The translations under genes were made by a program, and so were the position numbers. This document shows positions 4,681 through 17,080 of a stretch of 22,607 nucleotides of DNA, piece after piece. The notes below the pieces were generated by a model. The model was given only the letters and a program-made list of their open reading frames with translations, was not told the origin of the DNA and ran no database searches. Each line of letters starts with the position of its first letter. Positions within the stretch are counted from its first letter, which is position 1. This stretch comes from a virus: IMG/VR virus record IMGVR_UViG_3300008113_000690, positions 1 to 22,607 of that record; one strand, written 5' to 3'.

Positions 4681-7155
4681 ATGTCAACAGTAAGAATTCA
4701 AGTAAGACGAGGTACTGCATCAGAATGGACCTCAGTAAATCCTACACTAGCTGCAGGAGAACTAGGTGTTGAAACAGACACTAGAAAAATTAAAATTGGA
4801 ACTGGAAGCACTGCTTGGACTAGCCTTTCTTACATAGCAGCAGACTCACCAGCAATTACAGAAATTGCACAAGACGCAATTGATCAAGCTCTTTCTATGG
4901 GCTCAGGTCTTACAAAGTCTTATAACGATAACACAAATACAATTTCCCTTGGCATCGACGACTCAATTGTCGCACTTAAATCTTATGTTGACAGCCAGGT
5001 AGGTGGGTTACAAAATACAGTAACTTCAGACTATGTATTATTAGCAGATGTTGGAAATGCAGGTGGACCTGCAAAATTAGATGCTGACGGAAACTTGCTT
5101 GTTCCAAAATCAAGCATTATTATAGAAGGATCATCAGCAGATGCTCATGAAACCACACTAACAGTATCAAATCCAACATCAGATAGAACAATCACACTTC
5201 CAGACTCATCTGGTACAGTAGCACTAACATCAGACCTTGCACCATATGCAACAACACAAGCATTAAATTCCGTAGTATCTTCATTGAATATTCATCAAGC
5301 AGTAAATGTTGCAACAACAGAACCGTTAGTAGCAACTTATGCTGCTGGTTCCGCTGATAACGGCAATGGAACTGGAATTGGTGCAACATTAACAATGAAC
5401 TCAAATGGCACTCTAACAATAGATGGCTTACAAGCAGAAAATGGATTTAGAATATTAGTAAAAGATCAAGCAAACTTAGTTCATAATGGTATTTATGAAG
5501 TAACAATTGCAGGATCAGCTGGAGCACCAGCCGTTTTAACTAGATCTGCAGACTACAATAACTCAGATGTAAACACACCTCTTGATGTTGCTAAAGGCGA
5601 TGTCGTTTTTGTAACAGATGGAACAGAAAATGGATATAAACAATTTTCTCAAATATACGCAGGAACTAACGCAGACGGCTCAGTAAAAATTGGATCTGAA
5701 AATATTGACTTTACTCAAATTTCAGGAGCAGCAACAATTATAGCTGGAAATGGTATAACTAAATCAGGAAACACAATTAGTGTTGATGCTCAAGAATTTT
5801 TAGCAACATCTACCGCATCAAGTACATATTTAACTCAAGCAGATGCAGCAAATGACTATTTGTCACAAACAGATGCTGGGGCTACTTATTTAACTCAAGC
5901 AGATGCAGCTTTAACATATTTAAATCAAACAGACGCAAGTACGACATACCTGTCACAAGCAGATGCAGGTACAACATACTTGTCTCAAGCAGATGCTGCA
6001 ACAGATTATTTTGCTGTTACAACAGATCAAATTGAAAATGCCAATATTAAAATTGGCGCAGGAATTGCAGCAGATAAAATATCAGGAAACGCTGTAACAC
6101 AAGCAGATACAGGAACTGTAACCAATACAATGCTTGCAGGATCCATTGATAATAACAAATTATCAAACTCTACAATTTCAGGCATATCGCTTGGATCTAA
6201 TTTAGAAACATTAACAATTGGAACTGGTTTAAGTGGTACATCTTACAACGGTGGATCAGCAGTAACAATTGCAATTGATTCAACAGTTGCTACAGAGTCT
6301 TACGCAGACACCGCAGCATCAAATGCTCAAGGAGCAGCAGAAGATTACGCTGACGGACTTGCAGCAAATTACGAAGTTGCAGGAGCTGTTTCAACACACT
6401 CATCTGATACAACAAACGTACACGGAATTACAGATACAGCCCAAATTGCTCTTCTAGATGCTGCTACACAGCAATTTACAGGAGACATGGGAATTACTGG
6501 AGACTTAATTGTTGACGGTGACGTAACTGTTAATGGCGGAAGCTTTACAGCAAGCGCTACATCTATAACAATTGAAGATAATCTAGTTCAGCTTGCTCAT
6601 CAAAACGCAGCAAATACCGTAGACTTAGGTCTTGTTGTAGCGTACAATGACGGCGCAGCAAAACACTCTGGTATAGTAAGAGATGTTTCTGCTAATAAAT
6701 GGAAACTATTTAAAGGCGTAACAACAGAGCCTGCTACAACAGTAGACTTTACAGAAGGATCACTTGATGACCTTGAGTTAAATGAAATTAAAACAGCTGG
6801 AGTAGTATTCTCAGACGGCACACAGACCAAAGAGGGTGTTCCTTCAAGAACTCCAATTATTTCAAAGACTGCAGACTATACATTGTCTGCGCTAACCGAG
6901 AGAGATTCATTAATTGAAGTTGACTCTTCTTCAGCAGTAACAATTACAATTCCAACCAACTCAGCAGTTGCTTATCCAATTGGAACAACTCTAGATATTC
7001 TTGGAGTTAACACAGGACTAATCACAATCGCAGGAGATACTGGTGTAACAGTAAATGCTACCCCAGGATTAAAGTTACGTACACAATGGTCATCCGCAAC
7101 ATTACTCAAGAGAGCAGAAAATTCTTGGGTAGTTTACGGCGACTTGAAATCATAA
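4681..7155 (+). CDS. Major long tail fibre with Mtd-like N-terminus
   Basis: An 824-residue protein, the largest here. Residues 3-50 (Arg-Ile-Gln-Val-Arg-Arg-Gly-Thr...Leu-Ala-Ala-Gly-Glu-Leu-Gly-Val-Glu...Lys-Ile-Gly-Thr-Gly) fit the major tropism determinant N-terminal domain used to attach adhesins to virions. A 'SDRTITLPDSSGTVAL' motif at about 165-180 is common in phage fibres. Six 10-residue repeats occupy 383-442. Residues about 610-720 hold an IEDNLVQLAHQNA-type motif known from large fibres. The last 95 residues (ISKTADYTL to the end) are clearly paralogous to the C-terminus of the collagen-like protein at 15034-16137, including VTIxGDTGVTVN and PGLKLRxQWSSATLxKR. It is followed directly by a Phe/Pro-Hint gene, as is that collagen-like gene. 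It is probably a receptor-binding fibre. Confidence 0.75.
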   Translation: MSTVRIQVRRGTASEWTSVNPTLAAGELGVETDTRKIKIGTGSTAWTSLSYIAADSPAITEIAQDAIDQALSMGSGLTKSYNDNTNTISLGIDDSIVALKSYVDSQVGGLQNTVTSDYVLLADVGNAGGPAKLDADGNLLVPKSSIIIEGSSADAHETTLTVSNPTSDRTITLPDSSGTVALTSDLAPYATTQALNSVVSSLNIHQAVNVATTEPLVATYAAGSADNGNGTGIGATLTMNSNGTLTIDGLQAENGFRILVKDQANLVHNGIYEVTIAGSAGAPAVLTRSADYNNSDVNTPLDVAKGDVVFVTDGTENGYKQFSQIYAGTNADGSVKIGSENIDFTQISGAATIIAGNGITKSGNTISVDAQEFLATSTASSTYLTQADAANDYLSQTDAGATYLTQADAALTYLNQTDASTTYLSQADAGTTYLSQADAATDYFAVTTDQIENANIKIGAGIAADKISGNAVTQADTGTVTNTMLAGSIDNNKLSNSTISGISLGSNLETLTIGTGLSGTSYNGGSAVTIAIDSTVATESYADTAASNAQGAAEDYADGLAANYEVAGAVSTHSSDTTNVHGITDTAQIALLDAATQQFTGDMGITGDLIVDGDVTVNGGSFTASATSITIEDNLVQLAHQNAANTVDLGLVVAYNDGAAKHSGIVRDVSANKWKLFKGVTTEPATTVDFTEGSLDDLELNEIKTAGVVFSDGTQTKEGVPSRTPIISKTADYTLSALTERDSLIEVDSSSAVTITIPTNSAVAYPIGTTLDILGVNTGLITIAGDTGVTVNATPGLKLRTQWSSATLLKRAENSWVVYGDLKS
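5827..6006 (+). repeat. Six tandem 30-bp (10-residue) repeats in the long fibre
   Basis: Six in-frame units with consensus Tyr-Leu-(Thr/Ser)-Gln-(Ala/Thr)-Asp-Ala-x-x-(Thr/Asp) occupy residues 383-442 without spacers. The units differ at the DNA level, so they are not brand-new duplications. They probably form a regular shaft segment. Confidence 0.8.
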
Positions 7156-7167
7156 GGAGAATTATAA

Positions 7168-8400
7168 ATGAGTAAGAGATCTGGTAGAAAATCCCAAGCA
7201 GCAAATGACTTTTTAGAGCCAAAACCTGTAGAAAATTTAGTAGCTACAGATGTAGGAACTTCTAGAGCATACAATGACGGAGCAGTAAATCTATCATGGG
7301 AGTTACCTGCAGGATCACCTCCAGCAACCTCTTACTCAATTACAACAACCCCAGCATCAACAACACAAACTACATCTAATACCTCTTTTACATTTACTGG
7401 GCTATCATCAGATACAGCCTATACATTTTCAATAACTGGAAGCAATGCTGCAGGAACTTCTGCTGCTACAACTTCTAGTTCTGTAACAGCAACTACGGTT
7501 CCTCAATCTCCACAATCAGTTTCAGCAGCTTCTCCAAACGCAAACGAAGATGTTGTTTCATGGTCAGCAGGTGCTTCTGGTGGTAAAACAATTACTAGTT
7601 ATACCGTAATATCTTCAGATGGACCATCATACACAAATTCAACTTCACCAAAAACTATTTCAGAAACAGCTGGAACTTCACAATCTTATACAGTTTATGC
7701 AATTAACGATAATGGAACATCAGTAGGAGCAACTACTGGTTCTATTACTACAACAGCACCGTTCTTCCCACCGTTCTTCCCATATTTCCCACCGTTCTTC
7801 CCATATTTCCCACCGTTCTTCCCATTCTTCCCGTTCTTCCCACCGTTCTTCCCACCGTTCTTTCCACCAAGATTCGGTCCATATTTCCCAGCGTGTGTTG
7901 ACGGAGATACTTTAATCTTAACTAGCGAAGGTCCAAAACCTGCTAGAGAGATAAAAGTAGGAGATAAACTACTAACAGTTGATGCTTTAGGGTTAGCCGA
8001 TCAACCTAACAAAACACCTCTTGAAATTAATGTTCAAGATTTGATGATAAGTAACATGGTACACACAGAAGTTACAAATGTTATAGTCTCAGACAAACAG
8101 GACAGAGTTTACTTCAATGGAAACAAAGAAGTTCAGTTTACAGAAACTCATCCAATATTCGTAAAACGAAATAACGAATATCGTGTAGTCGAAGCAGGAC
8201 TAGTACAACAAGGAGATGTTTTAATAAATATCTCAGTAGATAACTTATCTGAAACTTTAGATATGACCAAGGTAATATCAGAAGTTGAAGTGTCTAAGGT
8301 AGATAAAATAACTTTAGATTTAGCAAAAGATGTGTACACATTTAGCTGCGATCCACATAATTGGTACTTCGCAGGAGATATATTAACACACAATAAGTAA
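7168..8400 (+). CDS. FnIII-like adhesin with Phe/Pro repeat and C-terminal Hint domain
   Basis: A 410-residue protein; AAGGAG lies 8 bases before the ATG. In order: a basic N-terminus (MSKRSGRKS); two fibronectin-III-like domains (about 20-110 and 113-196); a repeat of Phe-Phe-Pro and Tyr-Phe-Pro units (198-242); and a Hint domain (243-409). The Hint domain shows the nucleophile Cys243 after Pro-Ala, a block-B Thr325-x-x-His328, and the terminal His408-Asn409. Only Lys410 follows, so no Cys/Ser/Thr is available at +1 and normal protein splicing is not expected. Family knowledge predicts N-terminal thioester formation and cleavage at Ala242-Cys243, with water or another nucleophile as acceptor. 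No endonuclease insert is present. The gene ends a transcription unit, with a strong terminator 13 bases downstream. Cleavage or cross-linking of the adhesive half is inferred. Confidence 0.8.
   Translation: MSKRSGRKSQAANDFLEPKPVENLVATDVGTSRAYNDGAVNLSWELPAGSPPATSYSITTTPASTTQTTSNTSFTFTGLSSDTAYTFSITGSNAAGTSAATTSSSVTATTVPQSPQSVSAASPNANEDVVSWSAGASGGKTITSYTVISSDGPSYTNSTSPKTISETAGTSQSYTVYAINDNGTSVGATTGSITTTAPFFPPFFPYFPPFFPYFPPFFPFFPFFPPFFPPFFPPRFGPYFPACVDGDTLILTSEGPKPAREIKVGDKLLTVDALGLADQPNKTPLEINVQDLMISNMVHTEVTNVIVSDKQDRVYFNGNKEVQFTETHPIFVKRNNEYRVVEAGLVQQGDVLINISVDNLSETLDMTKVISEVEVSKVDKITLDLAKDVYTFSCDPHNWYFAGDILTHNK
7759..7893 (+). repeat. Phe/Pro-rich coding repeat, first copy
   Basis: Tandem in-frame units of CCG-TTC-TTC-CCA and CAT-ATT-TCC-type variants encode alternating PFFP and PYFP motifs just upstream of the Hint cysteine. 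The array is purely pyrimidine-biased on the + strand and likely prone to slippage. Confidence 0.85.
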
Positions 8401-8412
8401 AATAATAATCAC

Positions 8413-8438
8413 CTAAAGCCCCCAAACGGGGGCTTTAG
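8413..8438 (+). terminator. Strong stem-loop terminator after the first Hint gene
   Basis: An 11-bp perfect stem (CTAAAGCCCCC / GGGGGCTTTAG) with a 4-base loop lies 13 bases after the stop codon. The following T-tract is imperfect (TATTCTT). It separates the fibre genes from the oxygenase operon. Confidence 0.85.
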
Positions 8439-8443
8439 TATTC

Positions 8444-8472
8444 TTGACAGTTAATTATATATTATATATAAT
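8444..8472 (+). promoter_or_regulatory. Consensus sigma-70-type promoter of the oxygenase operon
   Basis: TTGACA (8444-8449), 17 bases, then TATAAT (8467-8472): both hexamers are perfect and the spacing is optimal. It starts six bases after the terminator stem. The expected transcription start is near 8479, leaving about 18 bases before the ATG at 8497, which has only a weak ribosome-binding site (AGAAAGA). Confidence 0.85.
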
Positions 8473-8496: not shown

Positions 8497-9216
8497 ATGC
8501 AAGATATTTATGATATAAACGATAATCCATGGTTTACAAAAGATAGATCAGAATCAACTTCTTTTAGGGTAAATAGATCTTTTGGTAATATTAAAGTTTT
8601 AAATCCAGGTATTGGATTAAATATTTATGAATCAGCTATTCCAAGCAGTGTTTGCGAAACATCAATTAAAACATTAGAAGATAAGCTAACAAATGGCAAC
8701 ATGTATAAATGGTCAGAAGCACAAGTTACGACCTCAGACAAACCAGTAAAATCTGCAAGAGATTGCGTAGATTTTAAATTTAAACCAGAAAATCTTGGAA
8801 AAAGAAATGAAAATAATGCAGAACTTCTAGATATGCATGAATCCATTTATAATGTATTAAAAAAATGCGTAGATGATTATTGTCAATATTGGGGAATTAA
8901 TGTTGTATATTATGAAGCTTTTAATTTTGTGAAATACACCAGCCCAGGACAACATTTTAGAGTTCATGCTGATCATGGTCCACACTATAATTGTACAGTT
9001 TCAGCTGTAATATATTTAAATGATGATTACGAGGGCGGGGAGATAGCATTTCCAAGATTAGATAAATTAGTATATAAACCAAAACGTGGTGACGTAGTAA
9101 TTTTTCCATCAAACTATATATACGAACATTCTTCAGAACCAATGATTTCTGGAGATAAATACTCTGTTGTAATTATGATGGATATTAACCTATTAGGACA
9201 TAAGGAGAACAATTAA
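8497..9216 (+). CDS. Fe(II)/2-oxoglutarate oxygenase 1 (prolyl-4-hydroxylase-like)
   Basis: A 239-residue protein and first gene of the operon. The catalytic double-stranded beta-helix spans about 135-230 with metal ligands His157-x-Asp159 and His211, and Lys221 for the 2-oxoglutarate carboxylate. The hallmark IYLNDDYEGGE strand (172-182) and GDVVIFPS (198-205) confirm the P4H-like (2OG-FeII_Oxy) superfamily. Reaction expected from the family: hydroxylation of a protein side chain, classically proline, with O2 and 2-oxoglutarate. Length is normal and all active-site residues are present, so it should be active. It shares a distinctive Arg-Asp-Cys-Val-Asp-Phe-Lys-Phe-Lys block with the next gene, its closest paralogue here. 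The ATG follows the consensus promoter. The substrate is unknown; neighbouring Pro-rich and collagen-like fibres are candidates. Confidence 0.85.
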   Translation: MQDIYDINDNPWFTKDRSESTSFRVNRSFGNIKVLNPGIGLNIYESAIPSSVCETSIKTLEDKLTNGNMYKWSEAQVTTSDKPVKSARDCVDFKFKPENLGKRNENNAELLDMHESIYNVLKKCVDDYCQYWGINVVYYEAFNFVKYTSPGQHFRVHADHGPHYNCTVSAVIYLNDDYEGGEIAFPRLDKLVYKPKRGDVVIFPSNYIYEHSSEPMISGDKYSVVIMMDINLLGHKENN

Positions 9217-9872
9217 TGAATAAACAAACTTGGTCAAGCGCAGAAGACTTAGGATCAGGAATTTGGGTATATAGAGATGTTTTAACAAAAGATTTAGATA
9301 TTATTAATAGGCTAGAAACAAATTTAGATGGAAGCACTCCAGGTTGGACTTGGCAGCCAGCTTATGTTGGATATCAAGAAAGAATGCCAGAATATAGAGA
9401 CTGCGTAGACTTTAAATTTAAAAAATCAGATATAGCAAATGATAAGTCTCCTATATCATTAAAAATGCAAGAATTGTGGCAAGACTGCTATGATAGGCAA
9501 GCACCAGCAGTAGAAGATTATTGTCAAAAACATAATATACATAAACTTCAATATTGGGAAGCTTTTAATTTTATTAAATATGTTCCTGGACATCACTTCA
9601 TGGAGCACCATGATCATGGATTTTCATATAATTGCACTGTATCTTTAGTTGGCTATATTAACGATGATTACGAGGGCGGAGAATTATATTTCAGATTACA
9701 AAATTTAAATATTAAACCAAAAGCTGGAGATTTATATATTTTCCCTTCAACATATATGTATCCTCATCAAGCAAAAGTAGTTAAGTCTGGAACAAAATAT
9801 TCATTAGTTACAATGTTAGATTATAGCGCAAAATTTCATACTCCAGCAATGTACGAAGATACTGGTAATTAG
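9216..9872 (+). CDS. Fe(II)/2-oxoglutarate oxygenase 2 (prolyl-4-hydroxylase-like)
   Basis: A 218-residue protein with start and previous stop overlapping by one base (TAATG) and an AAGGAG site upstream. Metal ligands His131-x-Asp133 (within the His-rich EHHDHG) and His184, with Lys194 as the 2-oxoglutarate-binding base; INDDYEGGELYF at 148-159. It shares RDCVDFKFK (61-69) and a YWEAFNF(I/V)KY strand with oxygenase 1, so the two form a subfamily and probably arose by tandem duplication. All catalytic residues are intact. The product probably acts in the cytoplasm before virion assembly. Substrate is inferred only from neighbours. Confidence 0.85.
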   Translation: MNKQTWSSAEDLGSGIWVYRDVLTKDLDIINRLETNLDGSTPGWTWQPAYVGYQERMPEYRDCVDFKFKKSDIANDKSPISLKMQELWQDCYDRQAPAVEDYCQKHNIHKLQYWEAFNFIKYVPGHHFMEHHDHGFSYNCTVSLVGYINDDYEGGELYFRLQNLNIKPKAGDLYIFPSTYMYPHQAKVVKSGTKYSLVTMLDYSAKFHTPAMYEDTGN

Positions 9873-10591
9873 TGTCTATATTAAAGGCATATAAAAGACA
9901 TCCAAATTCTTTTATAATTGAACCTATTTCAGTAAAAAGACAATGGATGGACGAAACTCCAGACGGTCATGCGTATAGGTGTTTTCCAGTAACAATGGCA
10001 AATACAATAGGTTGGACATTATCGTGTCCAGTGGACGTATCATTTATATGGGATGGGCAAATAGACACAACGCCAGATAGAGTTAAAATTTTATCTGGTC
10101 AAGAATATTGTTACACTGGAAGAGGCCAAGGTTCAGTAAGTTTTAATACAGGTCTTATTCTAAAATCAGAAAAACATATAAGTGTATTAAGTATTACTCC
10201 ACAAAATTATTTTTATGAAGATTTTGAAGTAATGTCATCATTAATAAGTACATCTTTTTTTAATGTTGATTTTCCATTAGCAATTAAAGTTAAAATTCCA
10301 AATAAAGAAATTATTATAAAAGCTGGCACTCCCATTGCTACAATTATTCCGATTTCTCTTACATCATTAAAAGATGAATCTATAGAAATAGAAAATTTTA
10401 TAAAGCCAGAAGATTATGATGCTAAATTAAAAAGTTATGGAGATGCTGCTCAAGTAATAAATCAATCTGGACAGTGGACAGATTGGTATAGAGATGCTAT
10501 TGATGAAACTGGCACATCTATTGGAGAGCATGAAACTAAAGCTTTAAAATTAAAAGTAATAGATAATACAACAAAGGAAAATAACAATTAA
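9872..10591 (+). CDS. DUF6065-like protein A
   Basis: A 239-residue protein from a GTG that overlaps the previous stop by one base (TAGTG). The N-terminal pattern Lys-Arg-x-Trp-Met-Asp-x-Thr-Pro...Ala-Tyr-Arg-Cys-x-Pro-x-x-x-Ala-Asn-x-x-Gly-Trp...Cys-Pro-Val-Asp is what I remember of DUF6065, a family of unknown function. Near the middle is a block ending AGTPIATIIP, also seen as AGTPYAQIIP in the next gene, so the two are diverged paralogues. No HxD...H iron site, signal peptide or membrane segment is seen. It sits between oxygenases and is translationally coupled to them, so it may help choose, hold or read their substrate. That role is inference. Confidence 0.65.
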   Translation: MSILKAYKRHPNSFIIEPISVKRQWMDETPDGHAYRCFPVTMANTIGWTLSCPVDVSFIWDGQIDTTPDRVKILSGQEYCYTGRGQGSVSFNTGLILKSEKHISVLSITPQNYFYEDFEVMSSLISTSFFNVDFPLAIKVKIPNKEIIIKAGTPIATIIPISLTSLKDESIEIENFIKPEDYDAKLKSYGDAAQVINQSGQWTDWYRDAIDETGTSIGEHETKALKLKVIDNTTKENNN

Positions 10592-11312
10592 TATAATTAA
10601 ATTTGTATCAAATAGGCCTTGGTTAAATAAAGAAAGTATTTCTAAGCCAACAGCAGCCATAAAAGAAATACCAGAATGGTTTAGAAAGGCAGATAGATTT
10701 GCAGTTAATCCAATTACTAAAGATTATTGGAAAGGGCCAGACGGAGGCAAAGTTCCTACATGGAAGGCTTGCCCAGCTATATTTGATATATTAGGCACTG
10801 GCTATGTTCTTAAAACACCATGCGACATTAAATTTTATTTAAAAAATAATAAAATGTCTGTTGAAATAAAAGAAGATAGGTATAAAGATTTTTGTTCTCA
10901 AAGAGACCCTATGCCACAATTTGTTCATCCAAAAGGTTACCATAAAGAACATTTTGCATGGTACCCAGACTGGGCAATTGAGTTGCCAGAAGGATACAGT
11001 GCTTTATACACAACCCCATTTAATAGGTTTGATTTACCATTTTTAATGACTACTGGAATTGTAGATAATGATAAAATTAATTTACCAGGAACAATGCCAT
11101 TTTTTATAATTAGAGGATTTGAAGGAGTGCTACCAGCAGGAACTCCATATGCTCAAATAATTCCATTTAAAAGAGAAGATTGGTCATCAGAAATATTTAT
11201 AGAAAATCCAAATAATTTATACAAAAAGAATCAAAAAAATAGTGATAAATATAGAGTAAAAGATGGTGGAGTCTATAAAAATGAAGTTTGGTCTAAAAGA
11301 ACATATGAATAG
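10587..11312 (+). CDS. DUF6065-related protein B with non-canonical (ATT) start
   Basis: The open frame runs uninterrupted from before 10587 to the stop at 11312, but the first ATG/GTG/TTG/CTG in it is the ATG at 10854. The 89 codons upstream of that ATG are clearly coding: they contain KFVSNRPWLNKE, PEWFRKADRF and a Cys-Pro...Gly-x-x-Leu...Pro-Cys-Asp block that matches the paralogue just upstream. AAGGA (10574-10578) lies 8 bases before ATT 10587, which overlaps the previous stop (ATTAA), copying the coupled junctions elsewhere in the operon. ATT is therefore the best start (241 residues); ATA 10593 is an alternative. The protein carries AGTPYAQIIP, shared with protein A. No catalytic motif is recognised. 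An alternative is that the gene lost its start codon and now makes only the shorter product. Confidence 0.7.
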   Translation: MNIIKFVSNRPWLNKESISKPTAAIKEIPEWFRKADRFAVNPITKDYWKGPDGGKVPTWKACPAIFDILGTGYVLKTPCDIKFYLKNNKMSVEIKEDRYKDFCSQRDPMPQFVHPKGYHKEHFAWYPDWAIELPEGYSALYTTPFNRFDLPFLMTTGIVDNDKINLPGTMPFFIIRGFEGVLPAGTPYAQIIPFKREDWSSEIFIENPNNLYKKNQKNSDKYRVKDGGVYKNEVWSKRTYE

Positions 11313-11314
11313 AA

Positions 11315-11323
11315 TGATATAAT
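11315..11323 (+). promoter_or_regulatory. Extended -10 promoter placed for a leaderless mRNA
   Basis: TGATATAAT is a perfect extended -10 element (TGnTATAAT). The hexamer ends exactly 6 bases before ATG 11330, so transcription would begin at or next to the A of the start codon. There is no ribosome-binding site before that ATG. The -35 region is weak, as allowed for extended -10 promoters. Confidence 0.55.
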
Positions 11324-11329
11324 AAATAT

Positions 11330-12001
11330 ATGGACAATAATTTAGCAAATGGTGCAGCAAATTGGGATAACCGTGTTTCAATAACACCACCTGGATTTTT
11401 TGGCAACAGTCCAGAGCATATTCAGGCAAGAGAAAATTTTATGACTGAAGAAGAGAGATTATTCTTATTAGAATCAGCTAAATCAATTAATGAGTGGGAT
11501 AGAACCGAAACTCATTATAATGATGACGGAATTGTAATTTATGACTCTTCTTATTGGGATAACCGTGTTGCATCAAGACCAATTCTTGATAAAATAAATC
11601 CAGAGATATCTGTTGTAATTGAAAAACTTGTTGAAAGATTAAAAGTTGAAGTTGATAATCATTTTAATGTTGATGCTAAACCTACAAGTCCAGCAATTGT
11701 TAGATGGATGAAAGGATATAGACAAGAGCCACATGCAGACAAACAGTTGCAAAATGGAGAGCCAAATGATTTTCCTTGGTATGATCTTGCTGGATTATTT
11801 TATTTAAATGATGACTACGAAGGCGGAGAACTTTATTTTATGCATCATGATGTACAATTTAAACCAAAACCTGGAGCAGCATATTTCTTCCCAGGAGATG
11901 TAGGATACAGTCACGGAGTAAAAGAAATAACAAATGGAATTAGATATGTTATTCCATTTTTTTGGACAATTTTAAAACATACTGGTGATAAGCAGCCATG
12001 A
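11330..12001 (+). CDS. Fe(II)/2-oxoglutarate oxygenase 3
   Basis: A 223-residue protein. Metal ligands His135-x-Asp137 and His195, with Arg205 as the 2-oxoglutarate-binding base; FYLNDDYEGGELYF at 157-170. Residues 1-115 form a variable region with two Tyr/Trp-rich segments, both containing Trp-Asp-Asn-Arg-Val. Using Arg rather than Lys at the co-substrate position sets it apart from oxygenases 1, 2 and 7. It follows a 17-base gap that holds the extended -10 element, and has no ribosome-binding site, so it may be transcribed separately as a leaderless message. Intact active site; target residue unknown. Confidence 0.83.
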   Translation: MDNNLANGAANWDNRVSITPPGFFGNSPEHIQARENFMTEEERLFLLESAKSINEWDRTETHYNDDGIVIYDSSYWDNRVASRPILDKINPEISVVIEKLVERLKVEVDNHFNVDAKPTSPAIVRWMKGYRQEPHADKQLQNGEPNDFPWYDLAGLFYLNDDYEGGELYFMHHDVQFKPKPGAAYFFPGDVGYSHGVKEITNGIRYVIPFFWTILKHTGDKQP

Positions 12002-12792
12002 CAGTAGATTACACAGAAATATATCCTAAAATATATGTATACCACAATTCAATAAAAGATCCTAATTTTTTTTTAAAGCAGTCTTTAAATCAATATAAAA
12101 TTGGTTGGAAGGATTGGTCATTTTTTGGAAGATATATAGGAATTGGCGGGAAAACAGCTAAATATAAAAAATTTCCAACCTGGGAAGAATTTAAAGAGTC
12201 TATAGATTTACAAGAAAATCAACAACTAAGTTTAGAGTATATTGATAAGTTTTATCACAACACTAAACATTATATAGATAATAATTTAATTACTTTAAAC
12301 GAATGGGCATACGAGTCTTCCTCTTTATGTGAATATGATATAGCAAAAGGACATGACGGAGAATTCTCTATGGCCTATCACTCAGACTTTATTGTGCCAG
12401 AAAAAAATTGGCCAGGATTAAAATTTGAAATATCAGTAACAACTTATCTTAATGATGATTACGATGACGGTGAGTTGTGTTTTGCTATAGATAACGATTT
12501 ATTTTCTTATAAACCTAAAGCTGGAGATATGATTATTTTTCCATCAAGACCACCATATTTTCATGGAGTAAGAAAACATAAAAATAAAAATAGATATATG
12601 ATTAGAGGATTTTGGCTATCTTCTTACGAAGGAAGTCTTGAATGGCATGAGGGATTGCTTAAATACGGTAAAGAAGAGTGGGAAAAAATGCAAAGAATCG
12701 AACTAGAAAAATATACCATAGAAAATATACCTTCTCCATCAGAATACGCATCTTCTTATTCTAGAGATAATGAAAGATTAAATATAAAATGA
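11998..12792 (+). CDS. Fe(II)/2-oxoglutarate oxygenase 4
   Basis: A 264-residue protein whose ATG overlaps the previous stop (ATGA). Metal ligands His128-x-Asp130 and His189, with Arg199; TYLNDDYDDGELCF at 149-162. It is the near twin of the next gene: the two share TxYP(K/G)xxVY at the N-terminus, MxYHxD, FPSxPPYxHxVRK, RYMIRxFW, a YEGSxEW segment and a following KYGKxxW. Oxygenases 4 and 5 are thus a recent tandem pair. Both have a C-terminal helical tail of about 55 residues not found in the others. Probably a protein hydroxylase; substrate unknown. Confidence 0.83.
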   Translation: MTVDYTEIYPKIYVYHNSIKDPNFFLKQSLNQYKIGWKDWSFFGRYIGIGGKTAKYKKFPTWEEFKESIDLQENQQLSLEYIDKFYHNTKHYIDNNLITLNEWAYESSSLCEYDIAKGHDGEFSMAYHSDFIVPEKNWPGLKFEISVTTYLNDDYDDGELCFAIDNDLFSYKPKAGDMIIFPSRPPYFHGVRKHKNKNRYMIRGFWLSSYEGSLEWHEGLLKYGKEEWEKMQRIELEKYTIENIPSPSEYASSYSRDNERLNIK

Positions 12793-13598
12793 AAAATTTA
12801 GAATTTATAACAATATATCCTGGAGTAAACGTATACAGAAATGTTTTTCAGGATGTAAATGATTTTTTAGAAAAAGCAAAAAAATGTGAAAAATGGGAGC
12901 AATGGTATACATTTGGATCAATGCTTGCTCTTCAAGAAATGCCAATTAAATTTGATTCATTTCCAAATAAAGATGAGTATATGACATCAAGAAAATGGGA
13001 CGACGGTACAGAAAATTCAAAAATAAGAGGACAGCTAGCAGAAGAAGTAGCAGAAATATTTTATGATGTAACAAGTCATTATATAAAAATGCATCCAGAG
13101 CATTCATTACAAAATTGGATAAAAAACCCCGCTTCTGTTAATAGATACAATGATGGATCAAGTATATCTGATAACTATTCAATGAACTACCATACAGACT
13201 ATAATCAAGAAATTGAAGATTCAAGTGGTATTAAATTTGGAATTACTACAACATTTTATTTAAATGATGACTATAAAGATGGAGAAATTTGTTTTAAAAT
13301 TAATGATCATTTTATTTCTCATAAACCACAAAAGGGAGACGTAATAGTATTTCCATCTAAGCCACCATACTATCATGCAGTTAGAAAATCTAGTGGAACA
13401 GATAGATATATGATTAGATCATTTTGGCAATTTGAGTATGAAGGATCAAAAGAATGGCTAGAAAATCAAGAAAAATACGGCAAAGATGTTTGGGCGTCTA
13501 TGGAAGAAAAAAGAATTAGCAAAGAAAGATTTATGTATCAAATTGAAGGAGAGTCTATGCATAAATTTTTTGGAAAAGATAATGGAATTAAACTATGA
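12789..13598 (+). CDS. Fe(II)/2-oxoglutarate oxygenase 5
   Basis: A 269-residue protein, ATGA-coupled to oxygenase 4, its closest paralogue. Metal ligands His135-x-Asp137 and His196, with Arg207; FYLNDDYKDGEICF at 156-169. Glycine-Gly of the usual EGGE motif is Lys-Asp-Gly here, while the iron ligands are kept. The extended C-terminal tail (about 215-269, charged and helical) is shared with oxygenase 4 and could be a docking element for another protein. Its stop overlaps the ATG of the CDGSH-oxygenase gene. Confidence 0.83.
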   Translation: MKNLEFITIYPGVNVYRNVFQDVNDFLEKAKKCEKWEQWYTFGSMLALQEMPIKFDSFPNKDEYMTSRKWDDGTENSKIRGQLAEEVAEIFYDVTSHYIKMHPEHSLQNWIKNPASVNRYNDGSSISDNYSMNYHTDYNQEIEDSSGIKFGITTTFYLNDDYKDGEICFKINDHFISHKPQKGDVIVFPSKPPYYHAVRKSSGTDRYMIRSFWQFEYEGSKEWLENQEKYGKDVWASMEEKRISKERFMYQIEGESMHKFFGKDNGIKL

Positions 13599-14437
13599 GA
13601 CAATGTACTTGTGGAAGATCTAATGCGTATCCATATTGTGATGGAACTCATAAAAAGAAAAAGGAGCCAATAATGAAAGACGGCATGATAGATGTTTTAG
13701 ATAAAAGTAAATTTATTGTTTTGCAAGACGAAGAAGTTCCAGAAAATAAAGCTGGTGTACTTGGAGTCTATACCAATAAAATTGTAGAAATACCCAACTT
13801 TATTGACCCAGCAATAGTTCCCAAGATGATTCATTTTTTTGAAAATTGTAATGTTGAGTGGGGAGATATTGCGTTTTACGGATCTTCTGGAAAAGGTATT
13901 TTAACTGACTCTGAAACAATGAAAAAATTTGGATTGCCAGATGAATTTTTTGATAAGTTAAAAAATAAATATCAGGAAACAGTAGAACTGGTATTCGGCA
14001 GAGAAGTTAGAGCAAATACTTCTCATGCACAAAAATGGGATGTTGGAGGATTTGCAAGCCCGCATTCAGATAATTCAGATAATGAAGGAAAACCTAATGC
14101 TTTTGAAATAAATAAGTATGTTGGAATTTTATACTTAAACGATGACTATGAGGGTGGGGAATTATATTTTTGCGATAAAGATAATGAGATGAATCCATAT
14201 CTATCATTTAAACCAAATGTATATTCTTATTATGTATTTCCTGGAGGGTATGAAAATATTCACGGAGTATCAGAAATTACTAAAGGAACAAGATACACTA
14301 TGGTATCATTTTGGGATTTTGCAGATTTAGTATATGACGATGCTACTTTAGAAAAATGGAAAGAAGAAGAAAAGCAAGTTAGAATTGAACAGGCTGCACA
14401 AAAAGAAGAATGGCTAAAAGGAAATAAATATGCCTAA
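13595..14437 (+). CDS. CDGSH iron-sulfur domain fused to Fe(II)/2-oxoglutarate oxygenase 6
   Basis: A 280-residue protein, ATGA-coupled to the gene before. Residues 4-19 read Cys4-x-Cys6-x2-Ser-x3-Pro-x-Cys15-Asp-Gly-Thr-His19, an exact match to the CDGSH signature whose three Cys and one His bind a [2Fe-2S] cluster. A Lys-rich linker leads to an oxygenase with His157-x-Asp159, His223 and Arg233, and ILYLNDDYEGGELYF at 178-192. CDGSH domains act in electron transfer or iron-sulfur handling, so the fusion could feed electrons to, or sense iron for, the oxygenase; this is inference. A strong AAGGAG lies 6 bases before an in-frame ATG (codon 27), so an oxygenase-only form may also be made. The tail (250-280) is charged and helical. 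Confidence 0.83.
   Translation: MRQCTCGRSNAYPYCDGTHKKKKEPIMKDGMIDVLDKSKFIVLQDEEVPENKAGVLGVYTNKIVEIPNFIDPAIVPKMIHFFENCNVEWGDIAFYGSSGKGILTDSETMKKFGLPDEFFDKLKNKYQETVELVFGREVRANTSHAQKWDVGGFASPHSDNSDNEGKPNAFEINKYVGILYLNDDYEGGELYFCDKDNEMNPYLSFKPNVYSYYVFPGGYENIHGVSEITKGTRYTMVSFWDFADLVYDDATLEKWKEEEKQVRIEQAAQKEEWLKGNKYA
13661..13675 (+). promoter_or_regulatory. Internal ribosome-binding site and start in the CDGSH-oxygenase gene
   Basis: AAGGAG (13661-13666), 6 bases, ATG (13673-13675, Met27), in frame with the oxygenase and just after the CDGSH motif. It would give a 254-residue oxygenase without the iron-sulfur domain. The AAGGAG also encodes part of the Lys-rich linker, so chance is possible. Confidence 0.5.
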
Positions 14438-15026
14438 TGTTCAAAGATTTGAAAAAATATCATATTATAAAAACGTTATAGACGATCCTAAATCACTAAT
14501 CAATTTAATAGAGGAGTCAGATAAAAATTTAACGTCAGATACTAGTATCCCAAGTTGGCAAGAATGGAATGCTAGCGGAGATAGTCCTTATCAATTTGGT
14601 TATCAAAAAAGATTTAACAATAATGTTGAAGCTGATACTTCTCTAGAAATTAAAAAAATAAATATGACATTAAAAAATGCTATTGTAGATGCATCTAATG
14701 ATTATTCAAAAGAATATGGTATAAATATAGGAACATTAATGCCTTTATCTATAAGTAAGTATTCCACTGGAAAATCTATGGGCCCTCATGTAGACGATTA
14801 TAATAATGGAGATGACCCAAACATATCAGTAGTTTTATATTTAAATGATAATTATGACGGTGGTGAGATTAATTTCCCAAATCAAAACATAACAATAAAA
14901 CCAGAAGCAGGAAGCATTGTGATATTCCCATCTGTAGAGCCATATTACCACGAATCCCTACCAGTTATTTCTGGTATTAAATATATGTCTCCTGGATTTT
15001 GGCGTAAAGTAGACAAGGTGGTATAA
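14430..15026 (+). CDS. Fe(II)/2-oxoglutarate oxygenase 7
   Basis: A 198-residue protein, the shortest oxygenase here and last gene of the operon; its ATG lies 8 bases inside the previous gene, behind AAGGA. Metal ligands His120-x-Asp122 and His174, with Lys184; LYLNDNYDGGEINFP at 136-150. The Lys co-substrate residue links it to oxygenases 1 and 2 and to classical prolyl-4-hydroxylases. It is adjacent to, and upstream of, the collagen-like gene, which makes that protein a natural candidate substrate (inference). Its final codons contain the -10 element of the next gene. Confidence 0.85.
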   Translation: MPNVQRFEKISYYKNVIDDPKSLINLIEESDKNLTSDTSIPSWQEWNASGDSPYQFGYQKRFNNNVEADTSLEIKKINMTLKNAIVDASNDYSKEYGINIGTLMPLSISKYSTGKSMGPHVDDYNNGDDPNISVVLYLNDNYDGGEINFPNQNITIKPEAGSIVIFPSVEPYYHESLPVISGIKYMSPGFWRKVDKVV

Positions 15027-15033: not shown

Positions 15034-16137
15034 ATGGCCACTATTCCAAATGATAAAAACTGGAGATTCCCAGACTACACAGATTCACCAGATATACCAA
15101 GAGATATTTCTTATTTAGCTGCAGATATTTCAGAGTATATAGATTCTCACCCAGGTCCACAAGGTGAGCAGGGGGATACTGGACCAGCAGGACCAGCAAA
15201 CGTTTTATCAGTCGGAACAGTAACAACTGGACCAGCAGAGTCTTCAGCCTCAGTTACAATTACTGGTACATCACCAGAGCAAACAATCAATTTTACAATT
15301 CCTCGTGGCGATACTGGAGCAACTGGTGCAACTGGCGCACAAGGTATTCAGGGAATACAGGGCATACAAGGAGAACAAGGAATTCAAGGTATACAAGGAG
15401 AAAAGGGCGACAAGGGCGATACTGGTGCAACTGGCGCAACAGGACCTCAAGGTATACAAGGCGAAAAAGGTGATGATGGTGACCAGGGCATACAAGGAGA
15501 ACAAGGAACTGGCGTTAATATATTAGGTTCTTATGCTAATCTTACAGCACTACAGACAGCACATCCAACTGGAAGCTCTGGAGATGCATATTTAATAGAT
15601 AATGATTTATATGTTTGGTCTCAATCAACATCTTCATGGATAAACGTTGGAACAATAAGAGGCCCACAAGGTATTCAAGGAGAGCATGGCATACAGGGTC
15701 CAAAAGGCGATAAGGGAGATACTGGCGATACTGGAGCAACTGGTGCACAAGGACCGCAAGGCCCACAAGGCGAACCAGGATTAACAGGAGCAGACGGAGC
15801 AGACGGAGCAGACGGAGCAGACGGTCAAGACCTTACATCAGTATTTACAATATCACAAAAATCTACATCTTACACATTAGTGGCATCAGATCTTGGAAAA
15901 TTAATAGAAATGTCAAATGGCGGAGATCTAATTATACCAACAGATTCAGAAATATTTGATATCGGATCTACTATAGATATAATTCAAACTGGATCATCGC
16001 AAGTAACAATAGGCGGAGATACTGGTGTAACAGTAAACTCAACCCCAGGATTAAAATTAAGAGCACAGTGGTCATCTGCAACATTAATTAAAAGAGGAAA
16101 TAATCTTTGGGTTGCTGTAGGCGATTTGAGCGTCTAA
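15034..16137 (+). CDS. Collagen-like tail fibre
   Basis: A 367-residue protein. Gly-X-Y triplets occupy about 41-55, 92-160 and 210-266, rich in GIQ, GEQ, GDT and GAT; this is a trimeric collagen-like shaft. Non-collagen inserts at 56-91 and 161-209 (the latter with GDAYLIDNDLYVWS, a module often placed between phage collagen segments) are beta-rich. The final 95 residues match the C-terminus of the 824-residue fibre. Prolines are mostly at position X; GEP (247-249) puts one at Y, the position used by animal prolyl-4-hydroxylase. It follows seven hydroxylase-like genes and precedes a Phe/Pro-Hint gene. A host-binding fibre is likely; modification by the oxygenases is inferred. Confidence 0.8.
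   Translation: MATIPNDKNWRFPDYTDSPDIPRDISYLAADISEYIDSHPGPQGEQGDTGPAGPANVLSVGTVTTGPAESSASVTITGTSPEQTINFTIPRGDTGATGATGAQGIQGIQGIQGEQGIQGIQGEKGDKGDTGATGATGPQGIQGEKGDDGDQGIQGEQGTGVNILGSYANLTALQTAHPTGSSGDAYLIDNDLYVWSQSTSSWINVGTIRGPQGIQGEHGIQGPKGDKGDTGDTGATGAQGPQGPQGEPGLTGADGADGADGADGQDLTSVFTISQKSTSYTLVASDLGKLIEMSNGGDLIIPTDSEIFDIGSTIDIIQTGSSQVTIGGDTGVTVNSTPGLKLRAQWSSATLIKRGNNLWVAVGDLSV
15790..15825 (+). repeat. Four tandem 9-bp repeats in the collagen-like gene
   Basis: GCAGACGGA is repeated four times (last base varies), coding for Gly-Ala-Asp triplets at the end of the shaft. The units are identical, which suggests recent slippage that would change shaft length one triplet at a time. Confidence 0.8.
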
Positions 16138-16138
16138 A

Positions 16139-17080
16139 ATGCCAAAAAGAAATCGTGGTAGATCTGGTACAAGAAAAACAAATGTTCCAAATTATTTAGG
16201 ACAAACTTCTACCGACACGCAAACATCTTTAACAAATCTTGGATTTGTTTATATATATAATACAACCGATACTACAACAGAGTCTGATAATTTAAAAATA
16301 TATTCACAAAGTATTTCTTCTGGTCAATTATATACTTTGGGATCACAAGTTTCAGTTGAATATTATGTGTATGTTGCGCCGTTCTTCCCACCGTTCTTTC
16401 CATTTTTCCCACCCTATTTCCCACCGTTCTTTCCATTTTTCCCACCCTATTTCCCACCGTTCTTTCCATTTTTCCCACCCTATTTCTTCTTTCCATTTTT
16501 CCCACCCTATTTCCCACCGTTCTTTCCATTTTTCCCACCAAGATTTGCCCCAGTGGGTCCTTATTTCCCAGCATGCCTAGATGAAAACACTTTAGTGTTA
16601 ACTAACGAAGGAATGAAGCCAGCTAAAGATATTAAGGTCGGGGATACATTATTAACAGTTGATGCATTAGGATTGTCTAATCAACCAAATGCAACCCCAC
16701 TTGAAATTAATGTTAAAAATCTTAATATAACAAACTTAAGATCTACACAGGTTACAAATGTAATTGTTTCTGATAAAACAGATAGAGTCTATTTTAATGA
16801 AAATACAGAAATTCAATTTACTGAAACTCACCCAATATTCGTAAAACGAAATAATGAATATCGTGTAGTAGAAGCGGGATCAGTTCAAGAGGGAGATATC
16901 ATTATAATTATAAATATAAGTCTCTTAAAAGAACAAATAAATATATCAGAAGTAATAACTGAAACTGTAATAAATAAAGTTGAAAAGAAAACTTTAGATG
17001 TTGCAAAAAATGTATATACGTTTAGCTGTGATCCATATAATTGGTATTTTGCTGGAAATATATTAACTCACAATAAGTAG
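16139..17080 (+). CDS. PASTA-like adhesin with Phe/Pro repeat and C-terminal Hint domain
   Basis: A 313-residue protein starting one base after the previous stop, with no good ribosome-binding site, so probably coupled. In order: basic N-terminus (MPKRNRGRSGTRK); a PASTA-like domain (about 16-78: Val-Pro-Asn-x-x-Gly, helix with Asn-Leu-Gly-Phe, Gln-Ser-x-Ser-Ser-Gly, Gly-Ser-x-Val); Phe/Pro repeats (81-145); Hint domain 146-312 with Cys146 after Pro-Ala, Thr228-x-x-His231, and terminal His311-Asn312 followed only by Lys313. The Hint part is closely paralogous to that at 7894-8400, even at the DNA level. PASTA domains bind uncrosslinked peptidoglycan or stem peptides, so the protein may touch the host wall. 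Autocleavage at Ala145-Cys146 is expected from the family; splicing is not. Confidence 0.78.
   Translation: MPKRNRGRSGTRKTNVPNYLGQTSTDTQTSLTNLGFVYIYNTTDTTTESDNLKIYSQSISSGQLYTLGSQVSVEYYVYVAPFFPPFFPFFPPYFPPFFPFFPPYFPPFFPFFPPYFFFPFFPPYFPPFFPFFPPRFAPVGPYFPACLDENTLVLTNEGMKPAKDIKVGDTLLTVDALGLSNQPNATPLEINVKNLNITNLRSTQVTNVIVSDKTDRVYFNENTEIQFTETHPIFVKRNNEYRVVEAGSVQEGDIIIIINISLLKEQINISEVITETVINKVEKKTLDVAKNVYTFSCDPYNWYFAGNILTHNK
16379..16573 (+). repeat. 33-bp identical tandem repeats coding Phe/Pro units, second copy
   Basis: An 11-codon unit (Pro-Phe-Phe-Pro-Phe-Phe-Pro-Pro-Tyr-Phe-Pro) is repeated from 16391 about 4.7 times. Units 1 and 2 are identical over all 33 bases. Six bases (CCACCG) are missing at the junction of units 3 and 4, in frame. 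Identical third-codon positions indicate recent expansion. Confidence 0.9.

Follow-up and report, generated by a model that had tools for sequence, protein, structure and literature searches.

The best-known cases of protein maturation by hydroxylation are collagen, the cell-wall proteins of plants and the sensing of hypoxia, and some peptidyl prolyl 4-hydroxylases act on proline-rich repeat proteins. In the tailoring clusters of ribosomally synthesized and post-translationally modified peptides (RiPPs), several modifying enzymes stand beside the gene of one repetitive peptide. Among phages, 14 of 16 cyanophages have several 2-oxoglutarate (2OG)-Fe(II) oxygenases according to the cited passages of Sullivan et al. 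(2010, PMC3037559), where a role in DNA repair or in 2OG metabolism is suggested for them, and the cited section of the Phold paper (PMC12774648) describes phage proteins of this kind as resembling human EGLN3. A search of the open-licence literature found neither a description of phage hydroxyproline or prolyl hydroxylase on virion, tail-fibre or structural proteins nor a paper on the family DUF6065. The DNA analysed here, called the window, is the 22,607-nt virus record IMGVR_UViG_3300008113_000690 (positions 1 to 22,607). It contains an array at 8497-15026 of nine genes with little or no spacing, namely ox1, ox2, two DUF6065-related genes and ox3 to ox7, directly downstream of the gene of an FN3-(FFPP)n repeat protein (hintA, 7168-8400). 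Judged from comparative sequence data and a structural model, it is likely that the array is a dedicated cassette, the enzymes of which would hydroxylate the adjacent virion-type repeat protein and share out its prolines. The repeat protein, which was overlooked in an earlier sequence-only reading of this DNA, is probably the key neighbour and the candidate substrate.

The seven divergent and intact prolyl-4-hydroxylase-like oxygenases described in that reading were confirmed. All of them passed the PF13640 cut-off of 27 bits (37.3-51.4 bits), an independent scan of the window gave exactly seven PF13640-type matches with no internal stops, and the HxD, the distal His and a Lys/Arg about 10 residues further were kept in 7/7 by alignment. 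The Y[LI]ND[DN]Y strand was also found in 7/7, and the YLND form that had been ascribed to every copy applies to six of them, with YIND in ox2. Among 1332 related frames, counted with contig-end fragments and overlapping loci, 1279 had the HxD...H and Lys/Arg pattern, and the PHROG 61 profile matched six of the seven oxygenases. Since the pairwise identities were 20.7-41.0%, corresponding to differences at 59-79% of the aligned positions, the seven appear to be old paralogues and not recent copies; recent duplication for dosage was ruled out by this divergence together with the presence of the clades in several phages. The omega values estimated against five relatives ranged from 0.02 to 0.25 for ox1, ox2, ox3, ox6, ox7 and both DUF6065 genes. 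In tblastn searches against isolate phages, ox2 showed 22-41% identity to the isolates listed, and no match was obtained with ox5, DUF6065 protein a or residues 1-141 of hintA.

The relatives of the locus were collected from viral contigs via the portal (best 80 of 596 confirmed) and via ox2 (best 80 of 523). The fetched relatives, further loci and the window collapsed into 62 groups sharing DNA, and one locus per group was counted: 36 with the repeat upstream, one without it (L121), three at a contig edge, seven with few oxygenases and 15 oxygenase-less. Thus, a repeat protein was located within 3 kb upstream (8 to 1993 bases) in 36 of the 37 testable loci with at least three oxygenases, the window included, and the single exception, L121, has 691 bases of upstream sequence. 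The repeat was absent from all seven portal relatives that lack oxygenases and have about 10 kb of sequence on the upstream side of the portal (eight more were too short on that side), and the comparison of 36/37 with 0/7 gave a Fisher p of 2e-7, which ignores the ancestry of the loci. The gene order was compared in 168 of 210 groups (at least two oxygenases, span up to 15 kb), and the recurrent order, with changes, was FN3-repeat protein, ox1, ox2, DUF6065a, DUF6065b, ox3 and further oxygenases. Because an array of the same ordered kind recurs in many viral contigs, it is not due to chance. The sequence-only reading had placed the array among fibre genes and had proposed a search of related phages for the same ordered cluster; this search showed the cluster to be conserved, ordered and located in the tail/fibre block, not scattered.

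The repeat was also used as the starting point for scans of viral contigs, in which at least 120 stretches were taken per repeat kind and all of the counts are among the matches listed. Stretches known from an earlier scan (1/120 in one scan and 3/120 in another), stretches with the motif outside a frame of at least 45 aa (4/119 for FFPP, 1/117 for FFxPPx, 0/120 for collagen and 4/28 for the genome scan) and those with less than 3 kb downstream (40, 50, 67 and 10, respectively) were dropped. A same-strand oxygenase was present within 5 kb downstream in 67 of 75 FFPPFFPPFF loci and in 60 of 66 FFxPPx loci, compared with 3 of 53 testable loci for the collagen-type GPx control. The FFPP pattern gave 28 stretches in about 85,000 bacterial and archaeal species (one genome each), with a downstream oxygenase in 2 of 14 testable loci. 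The same control bears on the proposal that another adjoining virion protein is the substrate, either the collagen-like protein at 15034-16137 or the Mtd_N fibre at 4681-7155, by analogy with collagen prolyl hydroxylation. The 367-aa GXY protein begins 8 bases after ox7 and the fold of ox2 was matched, among others, by a chlorella-virus collagen hydroxylase. Against this, collagen-type repeats are seldom followed by an oxygenase, as the control indicates, and a frame with at least six GXY units was found in 5/40 array loci versus 4/15 oxygenase-less relatives, many of these loci being short; this proposal is accordingly regarded as improbable, and the collagen-like protein was ranked low as a substrate.

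Three repeat kinds, FFPP, FxPPxF and (FGFTP)n, were distinguished, with largely different oxygenase sets, and the core common to both PP kinds is F-x-P-P-x-F. For the clade tree, the 1332 frames were reduced to 800 by taking one locus per group at 55% coverage, and then to 443 after the removal of near-copies, and the clades were counted over 111 FFPP and 77 FxPPxF loci. The ox1 clade was present in 58 FFPP and 0 FxPPxF loci and the ox2 clade in 70 and 3, respectively, whereas four other large clades were present in 0 FFPP loci and in 32, 27, 26 and 23 FxPPxF loci. Since many of the oxygenase clades are associated with a single repeat chemistry, division of labour fits better than dosage. This part of the sequence-only reading is favoured also by the distinct copies and by the mostly strong purifying selection; its wider suggestion of several target sites in a fibre setting holds as far as the conserved cluster is concerned, but the target is probably the FN3-(FFPP)n protein directly upstream and not fibres generally. 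Seven contigs with few oxygenases of this family (L030, L042, L043, L058, L059, L060 and L063) had at first resembled repeat-less arrays; in six of them, the FGFTP repeat was found on the same FN3 protein upstream (L058, L059, L060 and L063, L030 via G007 and L043 via G006).

Whole cassettes are exchanged between close relatives. Over 4.9 kb on the side of the portal, the DNA of L013 and L017 is 97.7% identical, yet they carry an FxPPxF and an FFPP cassette, respectively. L014, with a portal identical to that of L013, and the more distant L035 have FxPPxF cassettes that share 81% identity over 7.5 kb; the repeat and the enzymes are therefore exchanged together. Such en bloc exchange could also result from linkage alone, if a fibre-type protein and the oxygenases were swapped as a host-range block with no action on each other. 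This is judged to be highly improbable, since in the repeat-first scans the oxygenases accompany about 9 in 10 testable loci of the Phe/Pro kinds versus about 1 in 18 of the collagen type.

The fold of ox2 is, by its AlphaFold2 (AF2) model, closest to peptidyl prolyl hydroxylases. The best match was an algal prolyl 4-hydroxylase (P4H) with a (Ser-Pro)5 peptide (3gze, Z 18.6, 169 residues, 2.5 A), and the top matches 3gze, 6f0w and PHD2 had Z of 17-18.6; the further matches included a Trichoplax PHD, PHD2 with HIF peptides, a Pseudomonas P4H with EF-Tu and the chlorella-virus collagen hydroxylase already mentioned. The prolyl hydroxylases associated with EF-Tu by structure or by name (4iw3, 5v7y) would also fit if the oxygenases acted on host proteins or metabolites, through host protein hydroxylation or a draw-down of 2OG, and if their location were a recombination hot spot. 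Cyanophages commonly have several such genes per genome, which are read as metabolic or repair genes in the cited passages of PMC3037559. Moreover, the larger contigs G001 and G002, which carry the same array, gave 8 and 9 PF13640 matches in all and therefore encode one or two more oxygenases elsewhere, with two outside the array in G002. Action on host targets nevertheless leaves unexplained both the match of the repeat kind with many enzyme clades and the retention of several distinct paralogues in a conserved order, and we consider it quite improbable.

Hydroxylation of the repeat, by comparison, is suggested by the prolyl-hydroxylase fold, the near-constant proline-rich neighbour and the clades that change with the proline context. 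The oxygenases would act as peptidyl prolyl hydroxylases on the repeat of 7168-8400 and probably also on that of its twin at 16139-17080 (hintB), in a cassette that would be expressed late for a protein located in the virion. The paralogues may take different proline contexts, namely the first or the second Pro of PP or a lone Pro between aromatics, and the need for several enzymes may lie in the different proline contexts present in each repeat and in the length of the aromatic chain to be modified. A very hydrophobic (FFPP)n chain would thereby become a rigid, more polar or soluble hydroxyproline stalk, with a variable tip displayed at its C-terminus. The DUF6065-related proteins would be partners, perhaps trimeric holders of the chain, protein b being dUTPase-like in its predicted fold. 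That near-identical phages have swapped whole cassettes suggests a role of such a modified stalk in contact with the host.

Several observations weigh against hydroxylation of the repeat by the array. The lysyl hydroxylase LH3 and AlkB also match the ox2 model (Z 15-16), and the fold comparison covers ox2 alone of the seven oxygenases. No oxygenase was present in the downstream stretch of 8/75 FFPP and 6/66 FFxPPx loci, FFPP proteins of another architecture (L177 and L179, more than 900 aa) occur without an oxygenase, and 14 FFPP loci with complete-looking surroundings show one oxygenase only. The ox3 clade serves both repeat kinds (69 FFPP and 43 FxPPxF loci) and three smaller clades are mixed (36 and 8, 19 and 9, and 4 and 6, respectively). 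The constraint on ox5 is weaker (omega 0.21-0.46, same five relatives), and ox4, with no labelled orthologue, was left out of the omega test. The loci are related and the p-values ignore ancestry; neighbours co-travel by linkage alone, so the matching of clades and repeats is not independent proof.

The coordinates of the features in the window are collected in Table 1.

Table 1. Features of the oxygenase array and of the adjoining genes in the window.
Feature	Position	Strand	Remarks
Mtd_N fibre	4681-7155		upstream of hintA; considered as alternative substrate
hintA, candidate substrate 1	7168..8400	+	basic N-terminus, FN3-like domains, Phe/Pro tract, Hint C-terminus
hintA Phe/Pro tract (FFPPFFPYFPP...)	7756..7893	+	46 residues: 20 F, 19 P, 3 Y
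Terminator-like hairpin, 11 pairs	8413..8438	+	between hintA and oxygenase array
Sigma70-type promoter match TTGACA-17-TATAAT	8444..8472	+	directly 5' of ox1; only 12/12 match
ox1, Fe(II)/2OG oxygenase, 239 aa	8497..9216	+	PF13640 50.3 bits
ox2, Fe(II)/2OG oxygenase, 218 aa	9216..9872	+	PF13640 46.3 bits; AF2 model, predicted local distance difference test (pLDDT) 90.9
DUF6065 protein a, 239 aa, GTG start	9872..10591	+	PF19541 106.5 bits (cut-off 26.6), E 2e-30
DUF6065-related protein b, 241 aa, probable ATT start	10587..11312	+	phrog_7084; homologous to a
ox3, Fe(II)/2OG oxygenase, 223 aa	11330..12001	+	PF13640 37.3 bits; largest clade
ox4, Fe(II)/2OG oxygenase, 264 aa	11998..12792	+	PF13640 38.1 bits
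ox5, Fe(II)/2OG oxygenase, 269 aa, 38% identity to ox4	12789..13598	+	PF13640 37.6 bits
ox6, Fe(II)/2OG oxygenase, 280 aa, CDGSH-type N-terminus	13595..14437	+	PF13640 37.3 bits
ox7, Fe(II)/2OG oxygenase, 198 aa	14430..15026	+	PF13640 51.4 bits
Collagen-like (GXY) tail protein, 367 aa	15034..16137	+	PF01391 76.9 bits; low-ranked as substrate
hintB, candidate substrate 2	16139..17080	+	PASTA domain, Phe/Pro tract, Hint domain
hintB stretch holding Phe/Pro tract	16361..16573	+	71 residues: 28 F, 27 P, 8 Y

For hintA, one fn3 domain was detected by Pfam (PF00041, E 4.1e-13), a second FN3-like domain being our own reading, and PF14890 (Intein_splicing) was matched with 31.1 bits at a cut-off of 35.8. 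For hintB, the PASTA domain PF03793 was matched with 25.0 bits (cut-off 23.2) and PF14890 with 27.3 bits at the same cut-off of 35.8; its tract appears to be kept as protein, because the synonymous codons are varied. In both proteins the Hint domain begins right after the tract (FPA, followed by C) and ends with HN-K, and the Cys after the tract, TETH and HN-K are taken by us to be Hint/intein motifs. Such an ending looks as if the C-terminus of the stalk might be released or joined via a thioester, and several relatives have Cys-rich or short tips in place of the Hint domain. Phage proteins that are built differently (L177, L179, L242 and L256) also carry FFPP tracts, with the oxygenase absent in the available stretch.

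The two DUF6065-like partners named in the sequence-only reading could be confirmed. Protein a matched PF19541 well above the cut-off, protein b was homologous to it by profile-profile comparison (hhalign E 1.7e-5), and a PF19541 search of the G002 genome gave one match, at protein a only. Protein b was listed as 10854-11312 (152 aa), a version for which no Pfam family was found in the scan. An ATT at 10587 opens the frame, so the gene is probably longer than listed and starts there; an open reading frame (ORF) caller limited to ATG, GTG and TTG starts would shorten it to 152 aa. The AF2 model of protein b (pLDDT 93.7) was predicted to have a dUTPase-like fold (Z 10.6, 119 residues, 2.5 A), and all 50 matches listed were dUTPases, with a Foldseek E of 1.4e-3 at best. 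Protein b keeps the invariant residues G157, D160, D162 and Q190, which may be comparable to dUTPase motifs. The profiles of proteins a and b against PDB sequences gave nothing meaningful, the dUTPase and dCTP deaminase chains being unmatched.

This fold raises the question of whether the array modifies nucleotides or DNA, with the dUTPase-fold DUF6065 protein and the oxygenases making or protecting a modified base. A protein b relative in the halovirus HSTV-2 (L554, gp40) adjoins thymidylate synthase and another in the cyanophage S-RIM4 lies near ribonucleotide reductase, PF00692 dUTPase was not found in 12 related contigs, all possibly incomplete, and DNA repair is proposed for the cyanophage oxygenases in the cited passages of PMC3037559. 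A nucleotide function has a very low probability in our judgement, as the array sits in the tail/fibre block, ox2 resembles peptidyl prolyl hydroxylases and the coupling to the repeat protein would be left unexplained. Homologues of DUF6065b occur in many haloarchaeal tailed viruses, annotated as hypothetical among the matches listed.

In bacteria, DUF6065 was present in 45 of 385 genomes of one class. All of 30 alphaproteobacterial DUF6065 loci lacked such an oxygenase within about 1.5 kb on each side, and the pairing of DUF6065 with oxygenases therefore looks like a phage arrangement; no neighbour was common to more than four of these 30 loci. A Sinorhizobium copy adjoins an autotransporter-type gene the frame of which is very rich in proline, the DNA there being GC-rich, and a Niveispirillum copy had no recognisable neighbour of the autotransporter or proline-rich kind.

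The N-terminal stretch of ox6 (26 residues) carries a CDGSH-type motif at 13604-13651, which recurs in ox6 of relatives. The pattern CxCx2[ST]x3PxCDG[STA]H, which we take to be the CDGSH iron-sulfur motif, is complete in ox6, and zf-CDGSH was matched with 29.0 bits at a cut-off of 29.5 over 17 residues; of 24 frames with the motif, 23 were oxygenase frames, several being overlapping copies of this locus. Because an internal in-frame ATG at 13673 has its own AAGGAG 5' of it, two products may be made from the single ox6 frame.

The right part of the window contains the portal (PF04860) and a head maturation protease, and tail/fibre-type genes run through the left part, with the array between the two. 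The portal shows 55-59% protein identity to Streptomyces phages, which are first-listed among the isolates, and WhiB, described as an actinophage marker in the cited part of PMC10202952, is encoded in 8 of 12 related contigs; on these two grounds, the hosts are probably actinobacteria. The terminator-like hairpin and the perfect promoter match divide the array from hintA. Over the whole window, neither class of site was above chance when compared with shuffles, with 5 terminator-like sites versus a mean of 4.5 and 73 promoter-like sites versus 66.5 (sd 6.8).

The arrays of relatives contain further genes. L030, of the FGFTP type, has two oxygenases by our own profile, one of which is over the PF13640 cut-off in the whole contig, and its array also holds a short-chain dehydrogenase, several other genes and two genes related to DUF6065 that score below the cut-off of Pfam. 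The gene at 5116-5949 of L030 is glycosyltransferase-like (PF11397, GlcNAc transferase, E 0.001, below the cut-off), and no Pfam family was matched by its relative in L059. One member of each accessory family in or beside the arrays of relatives was scanned with Pfam, and the families comprised a short-chain dehydrogenase (31 ORFs, L218 6958-7635), a glutathione-peroxidase-like protein (16 ORFs, L281 3810-4448), TauD (10 ORFs, L207 11886-12746) and an Asp/Asn hydroxylase-like protein (5 ORFs, L496 1676-2290), hinting at further steps of modification; sulfotransferase-like and methyltransferase-like genes gave no such Pfam match and are not claimed. A broader reading, offered tentatively and with some doubt, is a RiPP-like tailoring of the virion by swappable cassettes, each composed of a repeat and the oxygenases matched to it, up to seven or more and each specific for a position. 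Such enzymes might write a chemical code on the phage stalk, the dUTPase-fold DUF6065 proteins might have been recruited as holders of the chain, and the dehydrogenases, other dioxygenases and glycosyltransferase-like gene of the relatives might belong to the same tailoring.

As a swappable cassette sits behind a Phe-Pro repeat protein, its oxygenases probably hydroxylate the repeat, in a manner probably comparable to the hydroxylation of animal collagen and plant cell-wall proteins. If so, tailed phages possess a dedicated enzyme set for the hydroxylation of a structural protein, a concrete candidate substrate is provided for the 2OG-Fe(II) oxygenases, which are common and unexplained phage genes, and the multiple oxygenase copies per phage are explained. 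The matched enzymes and repeats would also form a natural series for reading prolyl-hydroxylase specificity.

Among the known systems, the cyanophage 2OG-Fe(II) oxygenases (PHROG 61) are likewise several per genome, and S-SCSM1 has some of them beside tail-fibre genes; unlike in this array, profile searches of two cyanophage regions detected no DUF6065 gene. Protein a clearly belongs to DUF6065 (PF19541), the copies of which in the 30 alphaproteobacterial loci stand apart from such oxygenases, unlike those of the phage array, and the dUTPase/dCTP deaminase fold is shared by the model of DUF6065b with no sequence match to such PDB chains. RiPP clusters have a small precursor with a leader, whereas the presumed substrate here has about 300-450 aa with FN3 domains. 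The peptidyl prolyl 4-hydroxylases, including Cr-P4H-1, PBCV-1 vCPH, PHD2/EGLN1 and the bacterial P4Hs, are like ox2 in fold, in the HxD...H and in the Lys/Arg for 2OG; in comparison with them, the phage array consists of several divergent paralogues instead of one enzyme, and its presumed repeat is aromatic-proline instead of GXY or Ser-Pro.

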